A stretch of DNA of 64,000 nucleotides from the NCBI RefSeq assembly GCF_016919725.2, contig NZ_JAJERH010000007.1, positions 1 to 64,000 of the forward strand, read 5' to 3'. A program made the position numbers and the translations under genes. Source of the stretch: Virgibacillus sp. AGTR (GTDB taxonomy: Bacteria; Bacillota; Bacilli; Bacillales; Amphibacillaceae). The notes under the pieces are model-generated. The model searched no databases. It was not told the DNA's origin and saw nothing but the letters and a program-made list of their open reading frames with translations. Shown here piece by piece: positions 22,763-64,000 of this stretch (the stretch's first letter is position 1; each line of letters begins with the position of its first letter).

Positions 22763-24301
22763 TTATTCCGGCTGATTATCTACGTTTCCGTTGTCTTGAT
22801 AAAATGCTTTAAAGTTATTATAGTTGACCATGCTTACCATTCCATTGGAAGCGTGGTGTAGGTCGTGACAGTGAAACAACCAATTTCCTGGATTATCTGC
22901 TAGAAATGCTACCTCGTAAGTTTCTCCTGGTTTTACGTTTAACGTATCCTTCATAATAGGTGAATGGCTAAGTGGTTCTCCGTTCTTACTTAAAACTTGA
23001 AAAAAGTGTCCATGAAGATGCATGGGGTGCGTAGCTTTATCCATACTATTATTTGTTAAGGTAACCTTCACTTTATCCCCCTTATTTACTTTTAAAGGAG
23101 ATACATCTGGGAAGGTCTTCCCATTAATTGTCCAAACCATGCCCATCTCAGCATCCATGTTCATCTGTGTAGCTAAATCCATTTCATATTCTACATCAAA
23201 GTTATCATTAATGGAGAATTGGGATTCCCTTTGTTTTCCAAGCTGGGTAATATCCACTGTATTGGTCGTTGTTTCATGCTTGTTATCCTGAACGTTTCTG
23301 TCCTCATATACAACATCTATTTTCATGGCCTGTGATGCTTCTGCCTCTCCATGACGGTCAATGGTAAAGTTACTACTGCCATCAGCTGTAAATTCAACGT
23401 CTATACGCTCTCCGGGGGCAATTTCAAACAACGATTTGTTTACGGATTGCGGTTTATTCACCTTTTGTCCATCTACATGAGTAATTTTGTAGTCTATTGG
23501 AATATGTATTTGATGAACCATGTACCCTGCATTTATGAAACGAAGCTTTACTAAATCCCCTTTTCTCACCTTTAGTGGTTTACTATTTTCATAGGATCTG
23601 CCGTTAATAGTAAAGATGTCATAGGAAGACATGTCATGTCCCATTCCTTTTCCATCCATCATTCCGCTCTTATTGTTCATGTCCATGTTATCGTGATCTG
23701 TATTATCTGTATTCTCTACTTGATAATTTCCAGATTCCCACTCATCGAGTACTAATGTATAATCTCGATCTATGTCAGCTTCTTCTTTAGGATCTGTAGG
23801 TTCTACAATGATCGTTCCATACAATCCCTTATCAAGCTGGTCTACGCCATTTTGATGGGAATGGTACCAATAGGTTCCGGGATCGTTTGCAACAAACTCA
23901 TATGTGTAAGATTCACCTGGTAAAACAGCATCCTGTGTTATCCCTGGAATACCATCCTCTGTATTGGGTACAGGGATGCCATGCCAATGGATAGAAACCG
24001 GCTCCTGTAATTCGTTCGTTAGATTAACTTTAACGACTTCCCCTTCTTTGACACGTAGTTGTTCACCTGGAACAGTGTCATTATAGGTCCAAGCATTTAT
24101 TGTATTTTCAGCAGTTAATTTCCATGTGGTCTCCATAGCTGTCAAATCGAATTCATTTACTTTCTTTCCGGTAAAATTCTCCTCTTTAACGTGTGCCGTA
24201 TCCCCTTTTTCTTGATTCGCATTGGTTTCTGATCCCTGTTGCGAACACGCAGACAAAAAACTAATCAGTAAAATAGCAATAAGTAAGTGAGTGATTCTCA
24301 A
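22763..24301 (-). CDS. Secreted lipoprotein multicopper oxidase
   Basis: 512 aa. Lipoprotein signal (LLIAILLISFLSACSQQ, lipobox Cys near residue 19), then three cupredoxin domains. Copper motifs: HWHGIPVPN, WYHSHQNG, HPMHLHGHFFQ and the C-terminal HCHDLHHASNGM (types 1-3 copper). A Met/His/Asp-rich insert (NMDMNNKSGMMDGKGMGHDM) resembles copper-oxidase inserts. Probably oxidises Cu(I), Mn(II) or phenolics at the outer face of the membrane. TTG start with AGGAGG six bases upstream. Divergent from a membrane cupredoxin gene, with repeats A4 and A5 between them. Confidence 0.9.
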   Translation of the reverse strand: MRITHLLIAILLISFLSACSQQGSETNANQEKGDTAHVKEENFTGKKVNEFDLTAMETTWKLTAENTINAWTYNDTVPGEQLRVKEGEVVKVNLTNELQEPVSIHWHGIPVPNTEDGIPGITQDAVLPGESYTYEFVANDPGTYWYHSHQNGVDQLDKGLYGTIIVEPTDPKEEADIDRDYTLVLDEWESGNYQVENTDNTDHDNMDMNNKSGMMDGKGMGHDMSSYDIFTINGRSYENSKPLKVRKGDLVKLRFINAGYMVHQIHIPIDYKITHVDGQKVNKPQSVNKSLFEIAPGERIDVEFTADGSSNFTIDRHGEAEASQAMKIDVVYEDRNVQDNKHETTTNTVDITQLGKQRESQFSINDNFDVEYEMDLATQMNMDAEMGMVWTINGKTFPDVSPLKVNKGDKVKVTLTNNSMDKATHPMHLHGHFFQVLSKNGEPLSHSPIMKDTLNVKPGETYEVAFLADNPGNWLFHCHDLHHASNGMVSMVNYNNFKAFYQDNGNVDNQPE

Positions 24302-24318
24302 AGTATCTCCTCCTTCTA

Positions 24319-24428
24319 GTTATCCGCATATAACTGCTAGTGAGACCCCACTTCAAGTAATAAAGTGAAATCAATATGGATAAGTGTGGGATCAATAAAA
24401 CTTCCACTGATTGAAGCTTCACTCTATA
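24319..24428 (+). repeat. Repeat family A copy 4
   Basis: TATCCGCATATAACTG at the left and GATTGAAGCTTCACTCTATA at the right; CCCCACTT/AAGTGTGGG can pair. It abuts the ribosome site of the multicopper oxidase gene, so it lies in that gene's 5' region. Confidence 0.75.
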
Positions 24429-24495
24429 AAGTCTAAAAAAAATGTGTGAAGAAACGATGCATAAAATCAAAATTTTCTGTGACAACTACGATTGA

Positions 24496-24609
24496 TTTAT
24501 TATCCTGCATATAACTGGCAGTAAGCCCCCACCTCAAGCAATAAAATGAAATCGAAATTGGTAAGCGGGGATCGACTGCCAGTAAATGTCCGATTAGTTG
24601 AACTTTATA
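24496..24609 (+). repeat. Repeat family A copy 5
   Basis: Contains TGCATATAACTGGCAGTAAG and CGACTGCCAGTAAATGTCCG, which pair as hairpin 1; truncated after CCGATTAGTTGAACTTTAT. Between the divergent copper-protein genes. Confidence 0.8.
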
Positions 24610-24674
24610 GTGAATGAATAGCTTAACGATTCATATAATGAAGCAATAGGACAAGTTTGCGAGGAGAATGGAAA

Positions 24675-25559
24675 ATGACAATTTCAATGTTTGTAACCAT
24701 ACTAGTTATTGCTTTACTTTCAACCTTCATTATCTGGAATACAATATATTATCGAAATAAGATTGCTGTGATGTCTGGGATGATGGTGGCAATGGCCCTT
24801 GGAATGAGTGCTGGATTAGCTATTGGTGTAATCATAGGAGCCTTTCTATCTGGGAATTTGTTTGATTCGACAGTGATTGGAATACTAGTAGGAATGGCTA
24901 CTGGTTATTTGGCTGGTATGCCAATAAGCATGATGGCAGTAATTGATGGGGCTTTAGCGGGTATCATGGGAGGGATGATGGGAGCGATGCTAGGGGATAT
25001 GATTGCTGCAGAAAACCAGGAGGCAATGATTCGAATCATAGTTGCATTGTTTGTAGGTACCATGCTCATTCTTTATTATTTAATCAAGCAAGAATCTACT
25101 ACAAAAGCAAGTGGCTGGTTCCTCCATCCCTTAACACTTATTGTGATAAGTTCCCTATTTTTTATGGCGTATCAGCAATTAGGTCCGGTTATGCCTTATT
25201 CAGCCAATGATTATAACAATAGCTATAGCCAGCTTCAGGAAAAGCATCTACAGATAGAGGCTGATGAATATACGTTTTTGCCAAACCGAGCGACGGTAGC
25301 AGTTGGAGAAACAATAAATCTTGTCTTAGCTAACCGTGGGACGATGGAGCATCATTTAGTAATTATCGGATTGAAAGCACAGGGTACATCCTCTGCTCAT
25401 CATCAGGAATCGAATTATTCGATTCAGCTGCATAGTGATGCGGGTGAGAATCAAGTTACTACATTTACCCCGCTTATACCAGGTACATATCGTTATATTT
25501 GCACGATCCCCGGACATAAAGAAGCGGGGATGGAAGGTGAGATAGAGGTGACACTATAA
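24675..25559 (+). CDS. Membrane protein with C-terminal cupredoxin (plastocyanin-like) domain
   Basis: 294 aa. The N-terminal half has five or six Gly/Met-rich membrane helices (ISMFVTILVIALL to TLIVISSLFFMAY). After a linker, residues about 195-294 form a cupredoxin with type-1 copper ligands: His in GTMEHHLVII, and Cys, His, Met in YICTIPGHKEAGMEG. The soluble domain should face outside, next to the divergent multicopper oxidase, and may pass electrons or copper to or from it; inference. ATG at 24675 follows GAGGAG; the in-frame TTG upstream includes that site. Confidence 0.85.
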   Translation: MTISMFVTILVIALLSTFIIWNTIYYRNKIAVMSGMMVAMALGMSAGLAIGVIIGAFLSGNLFDSTVIGILVGMATGYLAGMPISMMAVIDGALAGIMGGMMGAMLGDMIAAENQEAMIRIIVALFVGTMLILYYLIKQESTTKASGWFLHPLTLIVISSLFFMAYQQLGPVMPYSANDYNNSYSQLQEKHLQIEADEYTFLPNRATVAVGETINLVLANRGTMEHHLVIIGLKAQGTSSAHHQESNYSIQLHSDAGENQVTTFTPLIPGTYRYICTIPGHKEAGMEGEIEVTL

Positions 25560-56474: not shown

Positions 56475-57197
56475 ATGCAAACCAGTTTGCTTGAAAAATC
56501 ACCTCATGGTAGAGAGCGTATATCCCATGAGCTGTATGCCCTACTAGAAGAAATTGGTTCAAAGAAAAAAATGTATAAGGACTCCCATCTTTTTCATGAA
56601 GGAATGGAAGCTCATGAAATTTACCTGATTAAGTCTGGTCTGATTCAAATTAATAAGCTTACTGCAGACGGCAAGGAATTATCTCTTCGTATATGTAATC
56701 ATGACGATATTGTAGGCGAGCTTACATTATTTAGTGAGAATGCTAGGTACTTTCTCAGCGCGAAGGTTGTGGAGTCTGGTGAGGTCGTAATCATTAATAA
56801 GGATAGATTGGAAAAAGAACTCCTCTCTAATGCTGCCTTAACACTTGAATTTATGAAGTGGTCGGGAAACCATATGCGGAAATTCCAATCTAAAATTAGA
56901 GATCTGCTCTTGAATGGCAAAAAAGGTGCATTATACTCTACGCTTATTCGTTTATCAAACAGCTATGGTGTAACTTGTTCTAATGGTATTCTTATTGACA
57001 TGGCTTTTACTAATCAAGAGATGGCTTTGTTTTGCGCAGCAAGTAGGGAAAGCGTCAATCGGATGCTTAGTAGACTTAGGAAAATGGACATCATATCCAT
57101 TAATAGTAGCGGAAAAATTCTCATAAAGGATATTCAGTTCCTAAGAGATGAAATTGGCTGTGAGGATTGTCCGATTGAAATATGCAACATTAACTAA
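56475..57197 (+). CDS. fnr: FNR-type oxygen-sensing regulator (Bacillus type)
   Basis: 240 aa, CRP/FNR family: cyclic-nucleotide-binding-like N-terminus (HDDIVGELTLFSENARYFL), dimer helix and C-terminal helix-turn-helix (ALFCAASRESVNRMLSRLRKMDI). The extreme C-terminus GCEDCPIEICNIN has three cysteines, the position used for the 4Fe-4S cluster in B. subtilis Fnr; the N-terminal cysteines of E. coli FNR are absent. Activates anaerobic genes at TGTGA-N6-TCACA. A perfect such site stands before narK at 60360-60375. ATG after GAAAGGGG. Confidence 0.9.
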   Translation: MQTSLLEKSPHGRERISHELYALLEEIGSKKKMYKDSHLFHEGMEAHEIYLIKSGLIQINKLTADGKELSLRICNHDDIVGELTLFSENARYFLSAKVVESGEVVIINKDRLEKELLSNAALTLEFMKWSGNHMRKFQSKIRDLLLNGKKGALYSTLIRLSNSYGVTCSNGILIDMAFTNQEMALFCAASRESVNRMLSRLRKMDIISINSSGKILIKDIQFLRDEIGCEDCPIEICNIN

Positions 57198-57261: not shown

Positions 57262-57346
57262 TATAGCACAGTATTACGCTAGTACAGGCTGATGAAGAAT
57301 GGCATGCCTATTGCCTGTATTGGCGATCACACTGTGCTATTCTTTA
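57262..57346 (-). terminator. Nested hairpin after mobB / fnr
   Basis: ATAGCACAGT/ACTGTGCTAT outer arms with TACAGGC/GCCTGTA nested. Between the convergent fnr and mobB stops. Confidence 0.55.
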
Positions 57347-57829
57347 ATCAAAGTTATTAAGAAGCCAACTCATGAACGCCTCGATATGATTAAATATTGG
57401 ATACGGATCGGAGCGTTGCTGTAATGGTAGTGATGTTATGACTGCCTGAATGTTTGTCATTTGATCCAAGAGGTGAAGGTCTTGTTCACTCCTAATGAAG
57501 ACAATTTTGCTATAGTTCGCTTGCTTGTATCCTTCTATGATCAACAGCTCTATCCCCATCATTTGATAGATTTTCACTATTTGATCTACATATACAGGAT
57601 TTTGATAAGATAATTGAAGCATACCATCTCCTTCCACTCCTGAGATAATTGCGCCTGCCTTTACGTGTTTTTCACTATCTTTGTTCTCCATTCCCAATGG
57701 ATAACCACCATGGCCGTGATGTTTTAAGGAGGCTACTCGGAATCCTTGTTTGGAGAACGTTTTAATCATTCTGGATACAAGGGTTGTTTTTCCGCTGTTT
57801 TTATATCCGACAACTTGAATAATTTTCAT
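57344..57829 (-). CDS. mobB: Molybdopterin-guanine dinucleotide adapter protein MobB
   Basis: 161 aa. P-loop VVGYKNSGKTTLVSRM at the N-terminus, then SLKHHGHGGYPLGMENKDSEKH and LLIIEGYKQANYSKIVFIR. GTP-binding partner for molybdenum-cofactor maturation. ATG at 57829 with GGAGG upstream. It follows moeA with the moaE-moaD remnant between, the B. subtilis order moeA-mobB-moaE-moaD being altered. Confidence 0.92.
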   Translation of the reverse strand: MKIIQVVGYKNSGKTTLVSRMIKTFSKQGFRVASLKHHGHGGYPLGMENKDSEKHVKAGAIISGVEGDGMLQLSYQNPVYVDQIVKIYQMMGIELLIIEGYKQANYSKIVFIRSEQDLHLLDQMTNIQAVITSLPLQQRSDPYPIFNHIEAFMSWLLNNFD

Positions 57830-57840
57830 ATGAATCCTCC

Positions 57841-58125
57841 TCAACCACTGCTTACAGATGGGATGAAAGCAACCGTATCCCAGATTTTACTACGCCTTCG
57901 TTTCTAGCATATCCTTCGTTAATCGCTACATTGTTTGATCTAATCCGAGAGGATACATGTTCTTTAGTTTTTCTTTAAAATCTGTAATTGTTATTTGTCT
58001 AACCGTAAGCTTGATATTCCAAATAAAGGGTACGTTCCCTCTGCCCATTCTCGGACAGTACCAATAAATGTTGTTATTGCATCAGCTTTCCTTTTAACTA
58101 AGGCATCGACCTGAATTGGTTATTC
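57841..58125 (-). pseudogene. Fused moaE-moaD remnant
   Basis: From the moeA side, FNIVE, a stop, then PIQVDALVKRKADAITTFIG and TVREWAEG match the MoaE N-terminus; a frame change then gives TLYLEYQAY (58005-58031), also MoaE. Directly after, a MoaD-like segment follows (TITDFKEKLKNMYP, SNNVAINEGYARNEG) and, after a one-base slip at 57878-57884, DTVAFIPSVSSG ending at 57841, the MoaD C-terminus. The second half of moaE and start of moaD are deleted. Molybdopterin synthase would have to be encoded elsewhere for nitrate reductase to work. Confidence 0.78.
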
Positions 58126-58144
58126 TACAATATTAAAATAATAC

Positions 58145-59389
58145 TTACATATCATCTAATAAAATTACCGAAATTTCACTACCCTGTTTGTATCCCCTTG
58201 TACCAGCAGGAAATTCGATAAATACATTGGCAGCCCCAAGCGAGGAGACAACGTTGGATTTATCCAACCCAATTGGTGTCGCGACTAACTTTCCTTGATG
58301 AAAAGTTAGACGGCCCCTGACAAATCTGTCAAACGGATTTGGTTTGGAGAAATCAGCACCCAATATTGCCGTTTCCTTTTTTAAAAGTGGATGAAAAGCA
58401 TGGAGAAATTTTCGAATTGCCGGCCTTGTAAAAAGTTCAAAACCTACAAAACAGGCAGATGGATTCCCTGATAAACCAAATAACAGCTTGCCTGTTTTTT
58501 TTGCAACAGTTGTGACACTGCCAGGACGCATTCCCACTTTATTAAATAGAATTTCTGCTCCCAGTTCTTTATAGATATCCTGCATATAATCGTAATCTCC
58601 GACTGAAACACCACCGGTAGTTATTAAAATATCGACCTGATCCAATGCCTGTTTCACTTGCTCAAAGCATGCTGTGAAATGATCACTGAACTGACCAAAA
58701 TAATAGGGTTCCCCTCCTGCACGTATTACTTGTGATTGAACCATATAAGCATTACTATTTCTAATTTTACCTGGCTGTATTTCTTCATCTAACTCTAATA
58801 GTTCACTACCAGTTGCGATAATTCCGACAGTTGGTTTTTTGCTTGTGGGAACATGCTTATAACCGAAGGTGGCTAATAAGGCAACTATTCCTGGACTGAT
58901 ATAGGTGCCTTTTTTAGCTAGAACCTCTCCAGATTTGGCATCCTCACCGGTAAAGGAAATATTCTCTCCTTGTTGTAGCCTTCGTTTAATTTGGATGTAT
59001 CGTTTTTCACAAGCTTCATACTCTTTTACAGATTCAAACATAATAACGGCATCGCAACCATTGGGGACTTGCGCACCTGTCATGATTCGTACGGCTTGCA
59101 TTTTGCCAACCTTCCCAGTAAACACGCTCCCGGCACCAATCTCTGCAATAACTTCATAGTTTTGAGGATTGGTACTAGCAGCAGCTTCTGTATCCTTAGA
59201 ACGAACTGCAAACCCATCATAGGGCGAGCGATCAAAAGGAGGGATGGGATGATCAGCTACCAAATCGTCTCCAAGGAAATGTCCGTAGCTTTGATGGATA
59301 GGGATGTAATGGATACTTCCCTGGGGAGCATATTTGATCACACGTTTTAATGCTTCGTTCACTTTAATTGGTTTTCGACGTTCAACCAT
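58145..59389 (-). CDS. moeA: Molybdopterin molybdenumtransferase MoeA
   Basis: 414 aa. Domain start EALKRVIKYAP, PPFDRSPYDGFAVRSKDTE near residue 58, RIMTGAQVPNGCDAVIMFE near residue 110, and the catalytic-fold motif LITTGGVSVGDYDYMQD near residue 250. Inserts molybdate into adenylylated molybdopterin. ATG after GGAGG. First gene of the molybdenum-cofactor group. Confidence 0.94.
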   Translation of the reverse strand: MVERRKPIKVNEALKRVIKYAPQGSIHYIPIHQSYGHFLGDDLVADHPIPPFDRSPYDGFAVRSKDTEAAASTNPQNYEVIAEIGAGSVFTGKVGKMQAVRIMTGAQVPNGCDAVIMFESVKEYEACEKRYIQIKRRLQQGENISFTGEDAKSGEVLAKKGTYISPGIVALLATFGYKHVPTSKKPTVGIIATGSELLELDEEIQPGKIRNSNAYMVQSQVIRAGGEPYYFGQFSDHFTACFEQVKQALDQVDILITTGGVSVGDYDYMQDIYKELGAEILFNKVGMRPGSVTTVAKKTGKLLFGLSGNPSACFVGFELFTRPAIRKFLHAFHPLLKKETAILGADFSKPNPFDRFVRGRLTFHQGKLVATPIGLDKSNVVSSLGAANVFIEFPAGTRGYKQGSEISVILLDDM

Positions 59390-59639
59390 TTAATGTAACC
59401 TCCTAAACGATTAGTTTCTTATAGAAATTTTGTGCTTGTGTCATAGAATTCGTTCCATGAATGAGGCTCCTGCCATCTTTAAAAAAGACAATGCGTTAGA
59501 GTTCCTATTTCATGAAAAGCAAAAGGAATTTACCCCCTTACTAAATTGATAGCCTAATTGAATTGTTTTTGTACTAAGTTAAGAAAGTATAAAATCAGTG
59601 CAATGACTGCGTTAAGCCAAGTAGTTATTTTGAAATGTT

Positions 59640-59800
59640 TGTGTATATTGGCAATGCTCCGACTAATTACTTCGCTTTCGGCGGGCACGGCCTCAACTAA
59701 CTTTGCAAAGAAGAACACGTTACAAAGTGGATTTTCGGCTCGCGCTAATCCCGCAGGAGTCTACGTAATTAGTCTCCGCTATGAGAATGTGCAACAATTC
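59640..59800. repeat. Repeat family B copy 3 (partial)
   Basis: TCGGCGGGCACGGCCTCAAC, AAAGAAGAACACGTTACAAA and CCCGCAGGAGTCTACGTAAT parallel the GC-rich part of copies 1 and 2, without the terminal hairpin. Confidence 0.7.
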
Positions 59801-59884
59801 TTGTCATAAGTAATAGGTTGACTTTTTTTACAATGGGTAAAGTGAAAATCGTTATCCGTAAGTATAAAAACAGCTGTGTTACTT

Positions 59885-60095
59885 CATGCTAGCGTTGTAG
59901 AGCCTGATAATAGCGAAGGCCGGCTACTTCAACTCCTGTGGGAAATGTTTGACCTGAAGATCCACTTTTTTGAGCGGGTTTTGCTAAAAAAGTTAGCTGA
60001 AGGACAAACCCCACGGAAAGGGAAGTGGGCAGCCGGAGTGATTCCATAATAGCTACTAGAGGAAGCGTAAATCTGAGCATTTAGTGATAAGGACT
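59885..60095. repeat. Repeat family B-like copy 4 (diverged)
   Basis: CTGTGGGAAATGTTTGACC, GAAGATCCACTTTTTTGAG and AAAAAAGTTAGCTGAAGGAC follow the family B core in the copy-1 orientation with many changes. Confidence 0.5.
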
Positions 60096-60151
60096 GAGCG
60101 AATTTTGCTCAGTTTTTCTTATTTTTTCTTTTGTTATATTCATGAACTGGT

Positions 60152-60236: not shown

Positions 60237-60291
60237 ATAAAGTGCTTTTTGTATCTGTAATTTAAGTTAATCATAGCGCATTATGCGAAGT

Positions 60292-60307
60292 TGTGAAAAA
60301 CATCACT
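60292..60307. promoter_or_regulatory. Upstream FNR-like box
   Basis: TGTGAAAAACATCACT fits TGTGA-N6-TCACA with one mismatch. It lies 68 bp upstream of the perfect box before narK. Confidence 0.5.
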
Positions 60308-60359: not shown

Positions 60360-60403
60360 TGTGATGTTTTTCACAGCCAATCATCAAGTAAATCGATATC
60401 GTA
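60360..60403 (+). promoter_or_regulatory. narK promoter with perfect FNR box
   Basis: TGTGATGTTTTTCACA (60360-60375) is an exact TGTGA-N6-TCACA site. A -10-like TATCGT at 60398-60403 puts the site at about -41.5, the position known for class II FNR activation in B. subtilis narK. Confidence 0.85.
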
Positions 60404-60444
60404 AAGATGTCGAGATCAACTTGGAGAAAGGGGAAATTATTCCT

Positions 60445-61968
60445 ATGAAAAAGCCTGGTATACAGTTATCGATGCAAACATCTAGCCTAATTGTTGGATT
60501 TATGATCTGGGTTTTAATCTCATCTTTAATGCCTAGTATTCGGGAAGATATTGTTTTAACATCAGGTCAGGCTTCACTAGTAACTGCAATTCCTGTGATT
60601 CTTGGGTCTATATTACGTATTCCTATTGGATTTTATGCCAATCGATTTGGCGCACGATGGGTATTCATAGTTAGCTTTATCATCCTACTATTCCCTGTCT
60701 ATTATTTGAGTATTGCAAGCTCCTTTACAGATTTATTAATAGGTGGATTACTTCTCGGGGTTAGTGGTGCTACATTTTCTATTGGGGTCACATCGCTACC
60801 TAAGTATTATCCAAAAGAAAAACATGGTTTTATTAATGGTATTTATGCGGTTGGGAATGCAGGTACGGCCATTACAACTTTTGCAGCGCCTGTTATCGCT
60901 CAGTCTCTGGGCTGGCAAAGCACTATTCGATTATATATCCTTTTAATAATCCTTTTTATTGGATTGAATTTTTTGTTTGGTGATAAACAGGAAACAAAGG
61001 TCAAAAATTCGATGTCTGAGCAAATAAAGGGTGTGTATCGTAATGCTACACTTTGGTTTTTAAGTCTGTTTTATTTTGTAACATTCGGTGCCTTTGTCGC
61101 TTTTACGGTATTTCTTCCAAACTTTTTAGTGAATAATTATCATTTAGATACAGTAGATGCGGGTTTGAGGACGGCTGGATTCATTGTGTTAGCCACGCTC
61201 TTTCGCCCTTTAGGCGGCTGGCTGGCAGACAAATTCAATGCGTATATTATGTTAATGATTACCTTTATCGGTATCGCATTTTCGGGGATTTTATTGTCCT
61301 TTTCCCCAGGAATTGGCTGGTACACCATAGGGTCTATTGCTGTTGCTATGAGCGTGGGTATTGGGAATGGAACCGTCTTTAAACTTGTTCCTTTATACTT
61401 CTCTAAACAAGCAGGTATTGTAAATGGCATCGTCTCTGCAATGGGGGGATTAGGTGGCTTTTTTCCGCCAATCATACTAACAGCTGTTTATACGATAACA
61501 GACCATTATTCTATCGGTTTTATGGCTTTATCTCAATTTGCATTCATATGTTTAGTGATCGTCCTGTTTTTATATTACCAAGATCAGATGAATATTGAAC
61601 GGAAAATTATTGAAAGTACTGCAGAAGCAATTATTATAACCAATAAGGATGGTGTTATCCAAAACGTGAATCCTGCTTTTACTCGTGTTACCGGTTTTAC
61701 AAAAGAAAATGTAATTGGCAAAAAACCAAGTATACTACATTCTGGAAAACAGGATGCTGCCTTTTATAAGAAAATGTGGGTCCATATCCATCAAAAGGGA
61801 TTCTGGGAAGGAGAAATTTGGAACAAACGAAAAAATGGAGAAATATACAAGGAGTGGCTCAATATAAGTGCCGTTAAGAATAATGTTGGTGATGTTAAAT
61901 ATTATGTAGGCATGTTTAATGATCTGACAGAATTCAATCAGTCGAAATATAGAGATCATCATAGTTAA
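60445..61968 (+). CDS. narK: NarK-family nitrate/nitrite transporter with C-terminal PAS domain
   Basis: 507 aa. Residues 1-385 form a 12-span MFS transporter of the nitrate/nitrite porter group (FMIWVLISSLMPSIREDIVLTSGQ; VTSLPKYYPKEKHGFINGIY; PLYFSKQAGIVNGIVSAMGGLGGFFPP; nitrate-signature Gly runs). Residues about 390-507 are a PAS/PAC domain (ESTAEAIIITNKDGVIQNVNPAFTRVTGF; KNGEIYKEWLNISAVKNN). No kinase or GGDEF follows. NarK proteins are usually about 400 aa, so this is a fusion. ATG after GAAAGGGG; the longer frame upstream covers the promoter. Confidence 0.88.
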   Translation: MKKPGIQLSMQTSSLIVGFMIWVLISSLMPSIREDIVLTSGQASLVTAIPVILGSILRIPIGFYANRFGARWVFIVSFIILLFPVYYLSIASSFTDLLIGGLLLGVSGATFSIGVTSLPKYYPKEKHGFINGIYAVGNAGTAITTFAAPVIAQSLGWQSTIRLYILLIILFIGLNFLFGDKQETKVKNSMSEQIKGVYRNATLWFLSLFYFVTFGAFVAFTVFLPNFLVNNYHLDTVDAGLRTAGFIVLATLFRPLGGWLADKFNAYIMLMITFIGIAFSGILLSFSPGIGWYTIGSIAVAMSVGIGNGTVFKLVPLYFSKQAGIVNGIVSAMGGLGGFFPPIILTAVYTITDHYSIGFMALSQFAFICLVIVLFLYYQDQMNIERKIIESTAEAIIITNKDGVIQNVNPAFTRVTGFTKENVIGKKPSILHSGKQDAAFYKKMWVHIHQKGFWEGEIWNKRKNGEIYKEWLNISAVKNNVGDVKYYVGMFNDLTEFNQSKYRDHHS

Positions 61969-61995: not shown

Positions 61996-62011
61996 AGTGA
62001 TTTCTATCACT
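61996..62011. promoter_or_regulatory. FNR/CRP-like dyad before ric
   Basis: AGTGATTTCTATCACT, a perfect dyad close to the FNR consensus. A TTACAT at 62032-62037 lies at the spacing expected for a -10 activated from -41.5. Confidence 0.55.
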
Positions 62012-62069: not shown

Positions 62070-62759
62070 ATGAATACATTTACGAAAGATCACACACCAG
62101 CTCATATTGTAAAGATGTTCTCGAAGGCCAGTGACTTGTTTAAGGAGCATCAGATTGACTTTTGCTGTAACGGAGACCGCCCTCTTAAGGAAGCATTTGC
62201 TCAAAACAATCTTGATGGAGATGCGATTTTAAAGGAATTAAATACCAATTATCAAGGATGGCAGGCAAATGATTCTACTGTCGATTGGGGTACGTTCTCT
62301 ATATCAGAACTAGTAGATCACATCGTTCATACACATCATGCCTATTTGTTAGAGGAACTCCCTGCATTAGGGGAATTTGTTACAAAGGTTTTTCGTCGAC
62401 ATGGAGCAGATCAACCACATTTAATAGAATTGCATCGATTATACAATCATTTCAAAGTAGAAATGGAGGAGCATACTTTAAAAGAAGAGAATGAACTTTT
62501 TCCTTTATTGAAGGAATACGAATTAAACCCGAATGAAAAGCTGTTACAGCAAATTTATGAGACAATTCATAAATTAGAAAAAGAGCATGACGTTGTTGGA
62601 GAAGACTTGAAGGAAATGCGGGCCATTACCGATGGATATCAACCTCCTGTGAATGCATGCGGTACGTATCAAATTACCTATGCTAGATTAGCTGAATTGG
62701 AAGATGATACATTCCAGCATGTTCATTTGGAGAATAATATCTTGTTTAAGCGAATATAA
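62070..62759 (+). CDS. ric: Iron-sulfur cluster repair di-iron protein (Ric/ScdA)
   Basis: 229 aa. The ScdA_N domain is at the start (AHIVKMFSKASDLFKEHQIDFCCNGDRPL). A hemerythrin-like di-iron domain follows with ligand residues in LVDHIVHTHHAYLLEEL, LHRLYNHFKVEMEEHTLKEENELFP and KEHDVVGEDL. Repairs nitrosylated or oxidised Fe-S clusters; fits beside nitrate/nitrite reduction, which produces NO. ATG at 62070 after GGAGG. Confidence 0.93.
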   Translation: MNTFTKDHTPAHIVKMFSKASDLFKEHQIDFCCNGDRPLKEAFAQNNLDGDAILKELNTNYQGWQANDSTVDWGTFSISELVDHIVHTHHAYLLEELPALGEFVTKVFRRHGADQPHLIELHRLYNHFKVEMEEHTLKEENELFPLLKEYELNPNEKLLQQIYETIHKLEKEHDVVGEDLKEMRAITDGYQPPVNACGTYQITYARLAELEDDTFQHVHLENNILFKRI

Positions 62760-63044: not shown

Positions 63045-63704
63045 TTAGCTCCGTGGGTAAACAAATTCATTTAGGAAATAAGGCACAATGCTTCTATGAG
63101 ATGCTTTTCTTTCCTCTACAAAATGCTTTATCTCTGTAAAAAATGCCTCATCTAGCAATGGATATTGCACTGTTCGAACTTGGTCTAAGATTGAGTTATG
63201 TTCAATTACTGCGTCAACACTTGCGATTAATTGATCAACAAGTTTTTTGCTTGGTGTGATTCCCATAACATCTTTATATATTTGTGCATCTTCTTCTATA
63301 TCTAATACATGATATGGCAGCTTCATATCGATATGGATGCCATCAACAAGGTTTTCCGCGTATAATGCACGAACCTTTTGGTAATAAATTCCGCTAGTTG
63401 TTACAATTATTCTTCCACCAAAAAGTGCTCTCACTTGTTGCAATAGGTCACGCACTTCATCTAATGGGTTAATCAGAAATTCGCCTCCACTGAACATTAT
63501 AGCATCGAATAAAAAGCCACTTTTCTTCAAATAGTCATATAAATCATTTGTGGTCTTATATTCTTTTGGTGTGTTAGCGATGATTTCCTCATAATTATGA
63601 CAGCCCAAACAATGAAGGGGACAGCCTGACAATGAATGAATCAATAATGTGGTATGATTAGGCAAGTCAGTAAATGTGCGAATAAAGTTATTGTATAATT
63701 TCAT
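63045..63704 (-). CDS. nrdG: Anaerobic ribonucleotide reductase activating enzyme
   Basis: 219 aa radical-SAM protein. The cluster motif is SGCPLHCLGCHNYE (Cys-x3-Cys-x2-Cys near residue 35), followed by FDAIMFSGGEFLINPLDEV. It forms the glycyl radical on NrdD. Longer than classic NrdG (about 155 aa). ATG at 63704 is preferred; it starts 20 bp after the nrdD stop. Needed for dNTP synthesis without oxygen, matching the fnr/narK context. Confidence 0.88.
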   Translation of the reverse strand: MKLYNNFIRTFTDLPNHTTLLIHSLSGCPLHCLGCHNYEEIIANTPKEYKTTNDLYDYLKKSGFLFDAIMFSGGEFLINPLDEVRDLLQQVRALFGGRIIVTTSGIYYQKVRALYAENLVDGIHIDMKLPYHVLDIEEDAQIYKDVMGITPSKKLVDQLIASVDAVIEHNSILDQVRTVQYPLLDEAFFTEIKHFVEERKASHRSIVPYFLNEFVYPRS

Positions 63705-63724
63705 TGTGATGTTATCACCGCTAA

Positions 63725-64000
63725 TTAACGGTGGACAGCCTCCTTCAACGCAGCTTCTTTTAATCGTTTTCTCATCGCCCAATCGTATCTTCTCGCTTTT
63801 GACCAGAAGTTATATCTCCCTTCATAATATCCCTTATCATCTACATGGACGTTGTTTCTGGAGATCATTTTCAAATAACCAATAACTCTGCTGAAAGTTG
63901 CAATGTCTTTTGATTCACAGACGGGACAACGATGAATGTTCTTAGCATCTTCAGCAATGATTTTCTGACCGCAACTCATACAAGACGTAATCGTTGGTGT
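63725..64000 (-). CDS. nrdD: Anaerobic ribonucleoside-triphosphate reductase, C-terminal end (runs off window)
   Basis: Only the last 91 codons are inside. A zinc ribbon is visible (SCMSCGQKII and HRCPVCES, four cysteines), followed by the glycyl-radical region FSRVIGYLKMISRNN and a C-terminus rich in basic residues (NFWSKARRYDWAMRKRL). The full protein would extend beyond base 64000. Co-transcribed with nrdG. Confidence 0.85.
   Translation of the reverse strand, partial: TPTITSCMSCGQKIIAEDAKNIHRCPVCESKDIATFSRVIGYLKMISRNNVHVDDKGYYEGRYNFWSKARRYDWAMRKRLKEAALKEAVHR

Follow-up and report, generated by a model that had tools for sequence, protein, structure and literature searches.

In Virgibacillus sp. 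AGTR, a predicted nitrate/nitrite porter of the NarK/NarT type runs directly into a complete PAS domain, and this fusion is kept in many Bacillales. The gene lies in the 64,000-nucleotide stretch of DNA analyzed here (hereafter the window). By sequence and predicted fold, the PAS domain is assigned to the NifL-like FAD redox class. The best reading, to which we give a probability of about 0.5, is that the flavin redox state of the attached PAS domain adjusts nitrate/nitrite transport.

Domain structure of the fused protein

narK-PAS is a single intact frame from the ATG at 60445 to the stop at 61968, without internal stops. A ribosome site rated good, GGAGAAAGGGG, is located at 60423-60433, and alignments of homologs begin at the residue encoded at 60445; a second in-frame ATG at 60283 is therefore not favored as the start, and it is also unlikely because it is located before the putative promoter. 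Pfam assigned MFS_1 to residues 15-340 (E 1.9e-52) and PAS and PAS_9 to residues 386-493 (E 1.7e-15) and 394-496 (E 4.3e-17), respectively, and detected no output domain after the PAS in the 507-residue protein. The frame and these matches bear out an earlier note on this DNA, which had described a NarK of normal length continuing into a full PAS domain with no output domain. The features of the gene, in which a 12-helix porter is followed by one PAS domain, are as follows.

60445..61968, + strand: narK-PAS coding sequence, 507 amino acids (open frame; Pfam MFS_1 and PAS; 88 other distinct full-length homologs)
60445..61578, + strand: MFS part, residues 1-378, 12 TM helices, NarK/NarT-like (Pfam; PDB sequence and fold matches to E. 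coli NarK/NarU)
60616..60618, + strand: R58 codon (TM2), aligned with the NarK TM2 substrate arginine (alignment; at least 98% conserved)
61204..61206, + strand: R254 codon (TM8), aligned with the NarK TM8 substrate arginine (alignment; at least 98% conserved)
61510..61617, + strand: TM12 and linker, residues 356-391, one predicted continuous helix of fixed length (AlphaFold2; indel count)
61600..61935, + strand: PAS domain, residues 386-497, NifL/MmoS (FAD) type (Pfam; sequence and structure matches)
61777..61779, + strand: W445 codon, F-alpha Trp of FAD-type PAS, equivalent to NifL W87 (invariant, 89 of 89; criterion of PMC10468136; gap-free structural register)
61822..61824, + strand: N460 codon, second FAD-site residue, equivalent to NifL N102 (invariant, 89 of 89; structural register)

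A PDB sequence search returned NarK and NarU of E. coli as the sole solved relatives of the MFS part. The AlphaFold2 helices form a 12-helix NarK-like MFS fold, and the top nine Foldseek matches were all NarK/NarU (TM-score on target, 0.73-0.78). Among whole-transporter models the best was NarK TIGR00886 (E 6.8e-64), whose score of 216.2 bits is under the NCBIfam cut-off of 311.7 bits, a naming threshold and not a biological feature; we therefore call the protein NarK-like or NarT-like, not a TIGR00886 member. R58 and R254, conserved in at least 98% of the 89 homologs, align with the substrate arginines R89 and R305 of NarK. The motifs G137 N138 x G140 and G334 G335 x G337 G338 are conserved to the same degree; they represent GNxG (TM5) and GGxGG (TM11), the glycine-rich nitrate signatures of the NNP family. 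The MFS part is, by these features, a predicted nitrate/nitrite porter of the NarK/NarT type. E. coli NarK and NarU (PDB 4u4w, 4jr9, 4iu8) share the fold, both arginines, and both glycine motifs with it, but they have no PAS domain and are only about 21-23% identical to the window's protein in structural alignment.

The closest solved sequences to the PAS domain are MmoS and NifL. With a model of the isolated domain (pLDDT 88), NifL PAS1 ranked first both in Foldseek (E 5e-12) and in VIA-align (Z 18.9, rmsd 1.8, 116 residues). The structural register is gap-free, model residues 2-117 lying on NifL 24-139, so that W445 falls on W87 and N460 on N102, whereas NifL E70 is replaced by Pro. According to a survey of PAS domains, the F-alpha Trp is the primary determinant of FAD binding and an Asn or His is the second; FAD-binding members make up clusters 4, 9, and 14, with Asn in 4 and 14 and His in 9 and 14 (PMC10468136). 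W445 is on a predicted helix (438-451, AlphaFold2), and at the second site N460 is invariant; position 436 is Gln or His. Just 16 of the 112 PAS positions are conserved at 98% or more in the 89 sequences, and the rest are mostly variable.

Key residues of other PAS cofactors were absent from the 89 sequences. No Cys is conserved, neither as the LOV adduct Cys, whose equivalent position by alignment is the invariant P428, nor as the [4Fe-4S] cysteines of the NreB type; a conserved FixL-type heme His is missing too, as His reaches at most 37 of the 89 at any PAS position, the commonest being 436. This argues against LOV, Fe-S, and heme readings, which we rejected. FAD binding is likely because the Trp and Asn determinants are invariant, no Cys or His is conserved, and the match is NifL-like. 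Among the redox, oxygen, and ligand signals that the earlier note had proposed, redox sensed through a flavin is favored on these sequence features.

Distribution and history of the fusion

Besides the window's protein, we found 88 distinct full-length fused homologs (59-73% identity), including proteins from Oceanobacillus, Paenibacillus, Brevibacillus, Sporosarcina, and Neobacillus; the set of 89 consists of the closest hits, in which near relatives are over-represented. A scan of named genomes yielded 216 related stretches, and the best 80 of the 216, which were kept, all had 59-73% identity and all extended into the PAS. They came from genera including Oceanobacillus, Siminovitchia, Virgibacillus, Lentibacillus, Gracilibacillus, Neobacillus, Cytobacillus, Brevibacillus, Paenibacillus, Sporosarcina, and Planococcus. 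The same domain order elsewhere, for which the earlier note had proposed a search, was present at full length in 54 of 159 genomes of the window's family group and in dozens more from the order and class samples. Among 398 genomes sampled from the phylum, full-length fusions occurred only inside the window's own class, and a PAS-less relative was found in one genome outside it. One further fused copy, on a 1.44-Mb Niallia replicon, came from a search of plasmids. The arrangement is thus uncommon for NarK in general, as the earlier note had held, but common among the NarT-like porters of Bacillales. An assembly or frameshift artifact, which that note had named, together with absence from every other genome, as its possible refutation, can be dismissed as exceedingly improbable, because 89 distinct uninterrupted fused frames occur in several families and the PAS is under purifying selection, and nothing was found in its favor.

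No description of a NarK-PAS fusion by that name was found by keyword in the open-access literature, an earlier mention in subscription journals or domain databases being possible. A study of the B. azotoformans and B. bataviensis genomes lists narK at 1500 bp and says nothing of a PAS (PMC3475470). Both halves are of known kinds; their joining in one protein, how widely this occurs, and the FAD signature appear to be undescribed in the open-access literature searched.

An AlphaFold2 model of the protein (57 sequences, pLDDT 84.5) predicts TM12 and the linker as a single helix. None of the 88 homologs has an indel in residues 360-400; the C-terminal tail past residue 497 ranges from 0 to 13 residues. 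Such a rigid connection of fixed length would fit the passage of a signal along the helix. Over 38 close pairs, the PAS had a median dN/dS of 0.056 and the MFS part one of 0.028. Identity over the MFS part is correlated with that over the PAS (r 0.81, Mantel p ≤ 0.001), as would be expected if one fusion had been inherited as a unit.

In a tree of 125 MFS parts, built by a quick method and with many open forks, fused and PAS-less porters were intermixed within one clade, with 13 state changes, at least 7 of them forced by strong branches. The simplest reading of this tree is one early gain of the PAS followed by repeated loss; separate gains are a possible alternative history. PAS-less copies reach 72% identity to the window's protein over the MFS part. 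A decayed PAS downstream of the PAS-less genes was considered and rejected, as no remnant was found 3' of them. Because the PAS-less relatives are nested in the same tree, the PAS is separable; transport seems to proceed without it, and the PAS is probably regulatory. The closest PAS-less outgroup clade comprises Staphylococcaceae-like NarT-type porters (group f56, e.g., loci L122 and L123) with 51-54% MFS identity, for which we infer the Staphylococcus label from identity and context. Some of their loci adjoin nar/nre genes, but these porters terminate after TM12. One genome (G380) probably carries both forms: a PAS and NarK end lie at a contig edge (L130), and a PAS-less NarK is on another contig (L129). 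Recent copying of the PAS from a neighboring NreB-type kinase is unlikely, because the PAS domains of such kinases share only about 30-35% identity with the fused PAS, against 51% for a probable diguanylate cyclase encoded at another locus (L136).

Promoter and gene neighborhood

The window contains the following features around narK-PAS.

56475..57197, + strand: Crp/Fnr-family regulator (Pfam, NCBIfam)
57344..57844, − strand: mobB, molybdenum cofactor synthesis (Pfam, NCBIfam)
58145..59389, − strand: moeA, molybdenum cofactor synthesis (Pfam, NCBIfam)
60292..60307, + strand: second Fnr-like box, one mismatch (a lone match of this kind could be chance)
60360..60375, + strand: Fnr-type box TGTGATGTTTTTCACA, centered 77 bases before the start codon (exact TGTGAN6TCACA match)
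60397..60402, + strand: TATCGT, a weak possible −10 element at the spacing of an Fnr-activated promoter (sequence reading)
62070..62759, + strand: RIC (ScdA/YtfE-type) iron-sulfur cluster repair protein, the next gene downstream (TIGR03652, above cut-off)

Exact Fnr boxes were found upstream of 22 of the 89 fused genes against 0.1 expected and of 10 of 36 PAS-less genes against about 0 expected. Between moeA and narK-PAS lies a dispersed noncoding repeat of about 570 bp (about 59563-60128), with at least 41 matches in the genome at 90-98% identity. It folds as a single long imperfect hairpin (z −7.5); in the copies read, the left end often follows a T-run resembling that of an intrinsic terminator, and a terminator-like hairpin stands at the end. 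This genome is the only one in which full-length copies were seen; relatives have parts of it (about positions 94-219) at 70-85%, and no Rfam family matches it. A riboswitch or structured leader of narK was rejected, as nothing reached the Rfam gathering score, matches at E ≤ 1 were at chance level, and the structured stretch is this repeat. Immediately before the RIC gene, the inverted repeat AGTGATTTCTATCACT (61996-62011) could, by eye, be a box for Fnr or an NO regulator. Further on, an NrdG-like activase (63045-64000, − strand) follows a frame resembling the end of an anaerobic ribonucleotide reductase, another pair for anaerobic growth beside narK-PAS. Elsewhere, at 22763-25559, a multicopper oxidase-like protein (− strand) that looks secreted adjoins a membrane protein with a C-terminal cupredoxin-like domain (+ strand), as judged by eye.

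Among 100 fused loci, 93 have at least one gene of the nar, nas, nre, Moco, or Fnr/RIC/hemerythrin-type groups. Family searches on representatives identified NarG, NarH, NarJ, NarI, NreA, and Moco genes as recurrent neighbors in relatives, together with an NreBC-type PAS kinase and regulator and a NasC-like reductase. narG was present in 45 of 54 genomes with the fused gene versus 20 of 101 without it (p 1e-14), counts that combine two slightly different samples of 159 and 155 genomes. The neighborhood places the gene in a nitrate-metabolism context. The window genome's own narGHJI is on a separate contig (L145, G000:C138:5000-24900) with a Crp/Fnr gene; no narK was near it in the stretch read, and the genome yielded no other close NarK. 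NarG and NarH of this cluster are 92-93% identical to Oceanobacillus copies and NarJ and NarI only 50-59% identical to their best matches; it could be a mosaic or recently transferred cluster. In some fused genomes without narG, a NasC-like reductase is near the gene, so the porter may also serve assimilation.

Possible function of the attached PAS domain

In many nitrate-respiring bacteria, oxygen halts the uptake of nitrate by way of the cell's redox state, through a sensor that is unknown; all of 23 mutants of M. tuberculosis NarK2 kept the oxygen response (PMC3445494). As this inhibition is reported for M. tuberculosis NarK2 and E. coli NarK, in which no PAS is described (PMC3445494), a PAS is not required for it, and a flavin PAS cannot explain those porters. 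Where Bacillales have the fusion, the attached flavin PAS is a natural candidate for the sensor. The last TM helix of the porter would extend into a cytoplasmic, NifL-like PAS that binds FAD, and the redox state of the FAD would report oxygen or respiratory state. A redox change could then travel along the TM12 helix, perhaps via PAS dimers, and the movement of TM12 would alter the rate of nitrate/nitrite exchange. As oxygen is known to inhibit nitrate uptake, oxidized flavin would, by analogy, most likely slow it and reduced flavin would permit it.

Such gating in cis, which the earlier note had raised as a possibility, is the best-supported idea. It is supported by the NifL-like PAS with its invariant Trp and Asn and the fixed-length predicted helix that carries it, by purifying selection on the PAS and its divergence in step with the MFS part, and by the Fnr boxes, the nar/nas/Moco neighbors, and the narG co-occurrence. 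It is also supported by the close relatives that lack the PAS, since transport itself is then not PAS-dependent, and by the documented redox control of hypoxic nitrate transporters (PMC3445494). Against it, repeated loss of the PAS on the tree would make the control dispensable in some lineages, and where the porter is near an assimilatory reductase, an oxygen shut-off is less obviously useful.

PAS domains often dimerize and signal to partners, and two other readings draw on this. In the first, which is unlikely though the strongest of the rivals, the PAS reads flavin redox or transport and signals in trans to a sensor kinase, nitrate reductase, or other PAS protein, the porter being its anchor; nre-type sensor genes adjoin 33 of 100 fused loci. 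However, no partner is constant: a strong NreA match occurs in only 14 of the 54 fused family genomes, the window's genome yielding none, which makes a fixed NreABC partner less likely, and the rigid, indel-free linker favors coupling to the transporter. In the second, slightly less probable still, the PAS does no sensing and has a structural or assembly role, in dimerization, stability, or docking to nitrate reductase; the PAS-less relatives do suggest an accessory, but the invariance of W445 and N460 amid mostly variable positions speaks against it. There is a rather small chance that the PAS senses something else, such as a heme-bound gas, light, or a small ligand, e.g., nitrate or nitrite. 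PAS pockets bind many ligands (PMC8694187), and LOV domains are also close structural matches; the invariant FAD residues, P428 at the LOV Cys position, and the lack of a conserved His or Cys count against it.

Other known systems share some of these features. NifL PAS1 of Azotobacter (PDB 2gj3) and MmoS PAS-A (PDB 3ewk), the best matches, are FAD redox sensors with the same Trp and Asn, but they belong to soluble signaling proteins whose targets are protein partners and not a carrier. The E. coli energy sensor Aer (PDB 8dik) likewise has an FAD-type PAS with the F-alpha Trp and senses redox or energy state, but its output is a chemoreceptor signaling domain. In KCNH (EAG/ERG) potassium channels a PAS is also joined to a transport protein, but these channels have another fold and their PAS is in a LOV-like cluster (PMC10468136).

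These results suggest that Bacillales with the fusion tune nitrate uptake to the redox (oxygen) state inside the transporter itself. That the protein is an exchanger gated by a covalently attached flavin sensor, with oxygen/redox control of uptake placed in one polypeptide in many Bacillales, is a tentative proposal whose chances we put a little short of even. A NarK with a flavin-type PAS, and with natural PAS-less sisters as matched controls, makes the question of the oxygen sensor directly testable, and the protein would, if the proposal is true, be an example of a PAS domain acting on an MFS carrier.
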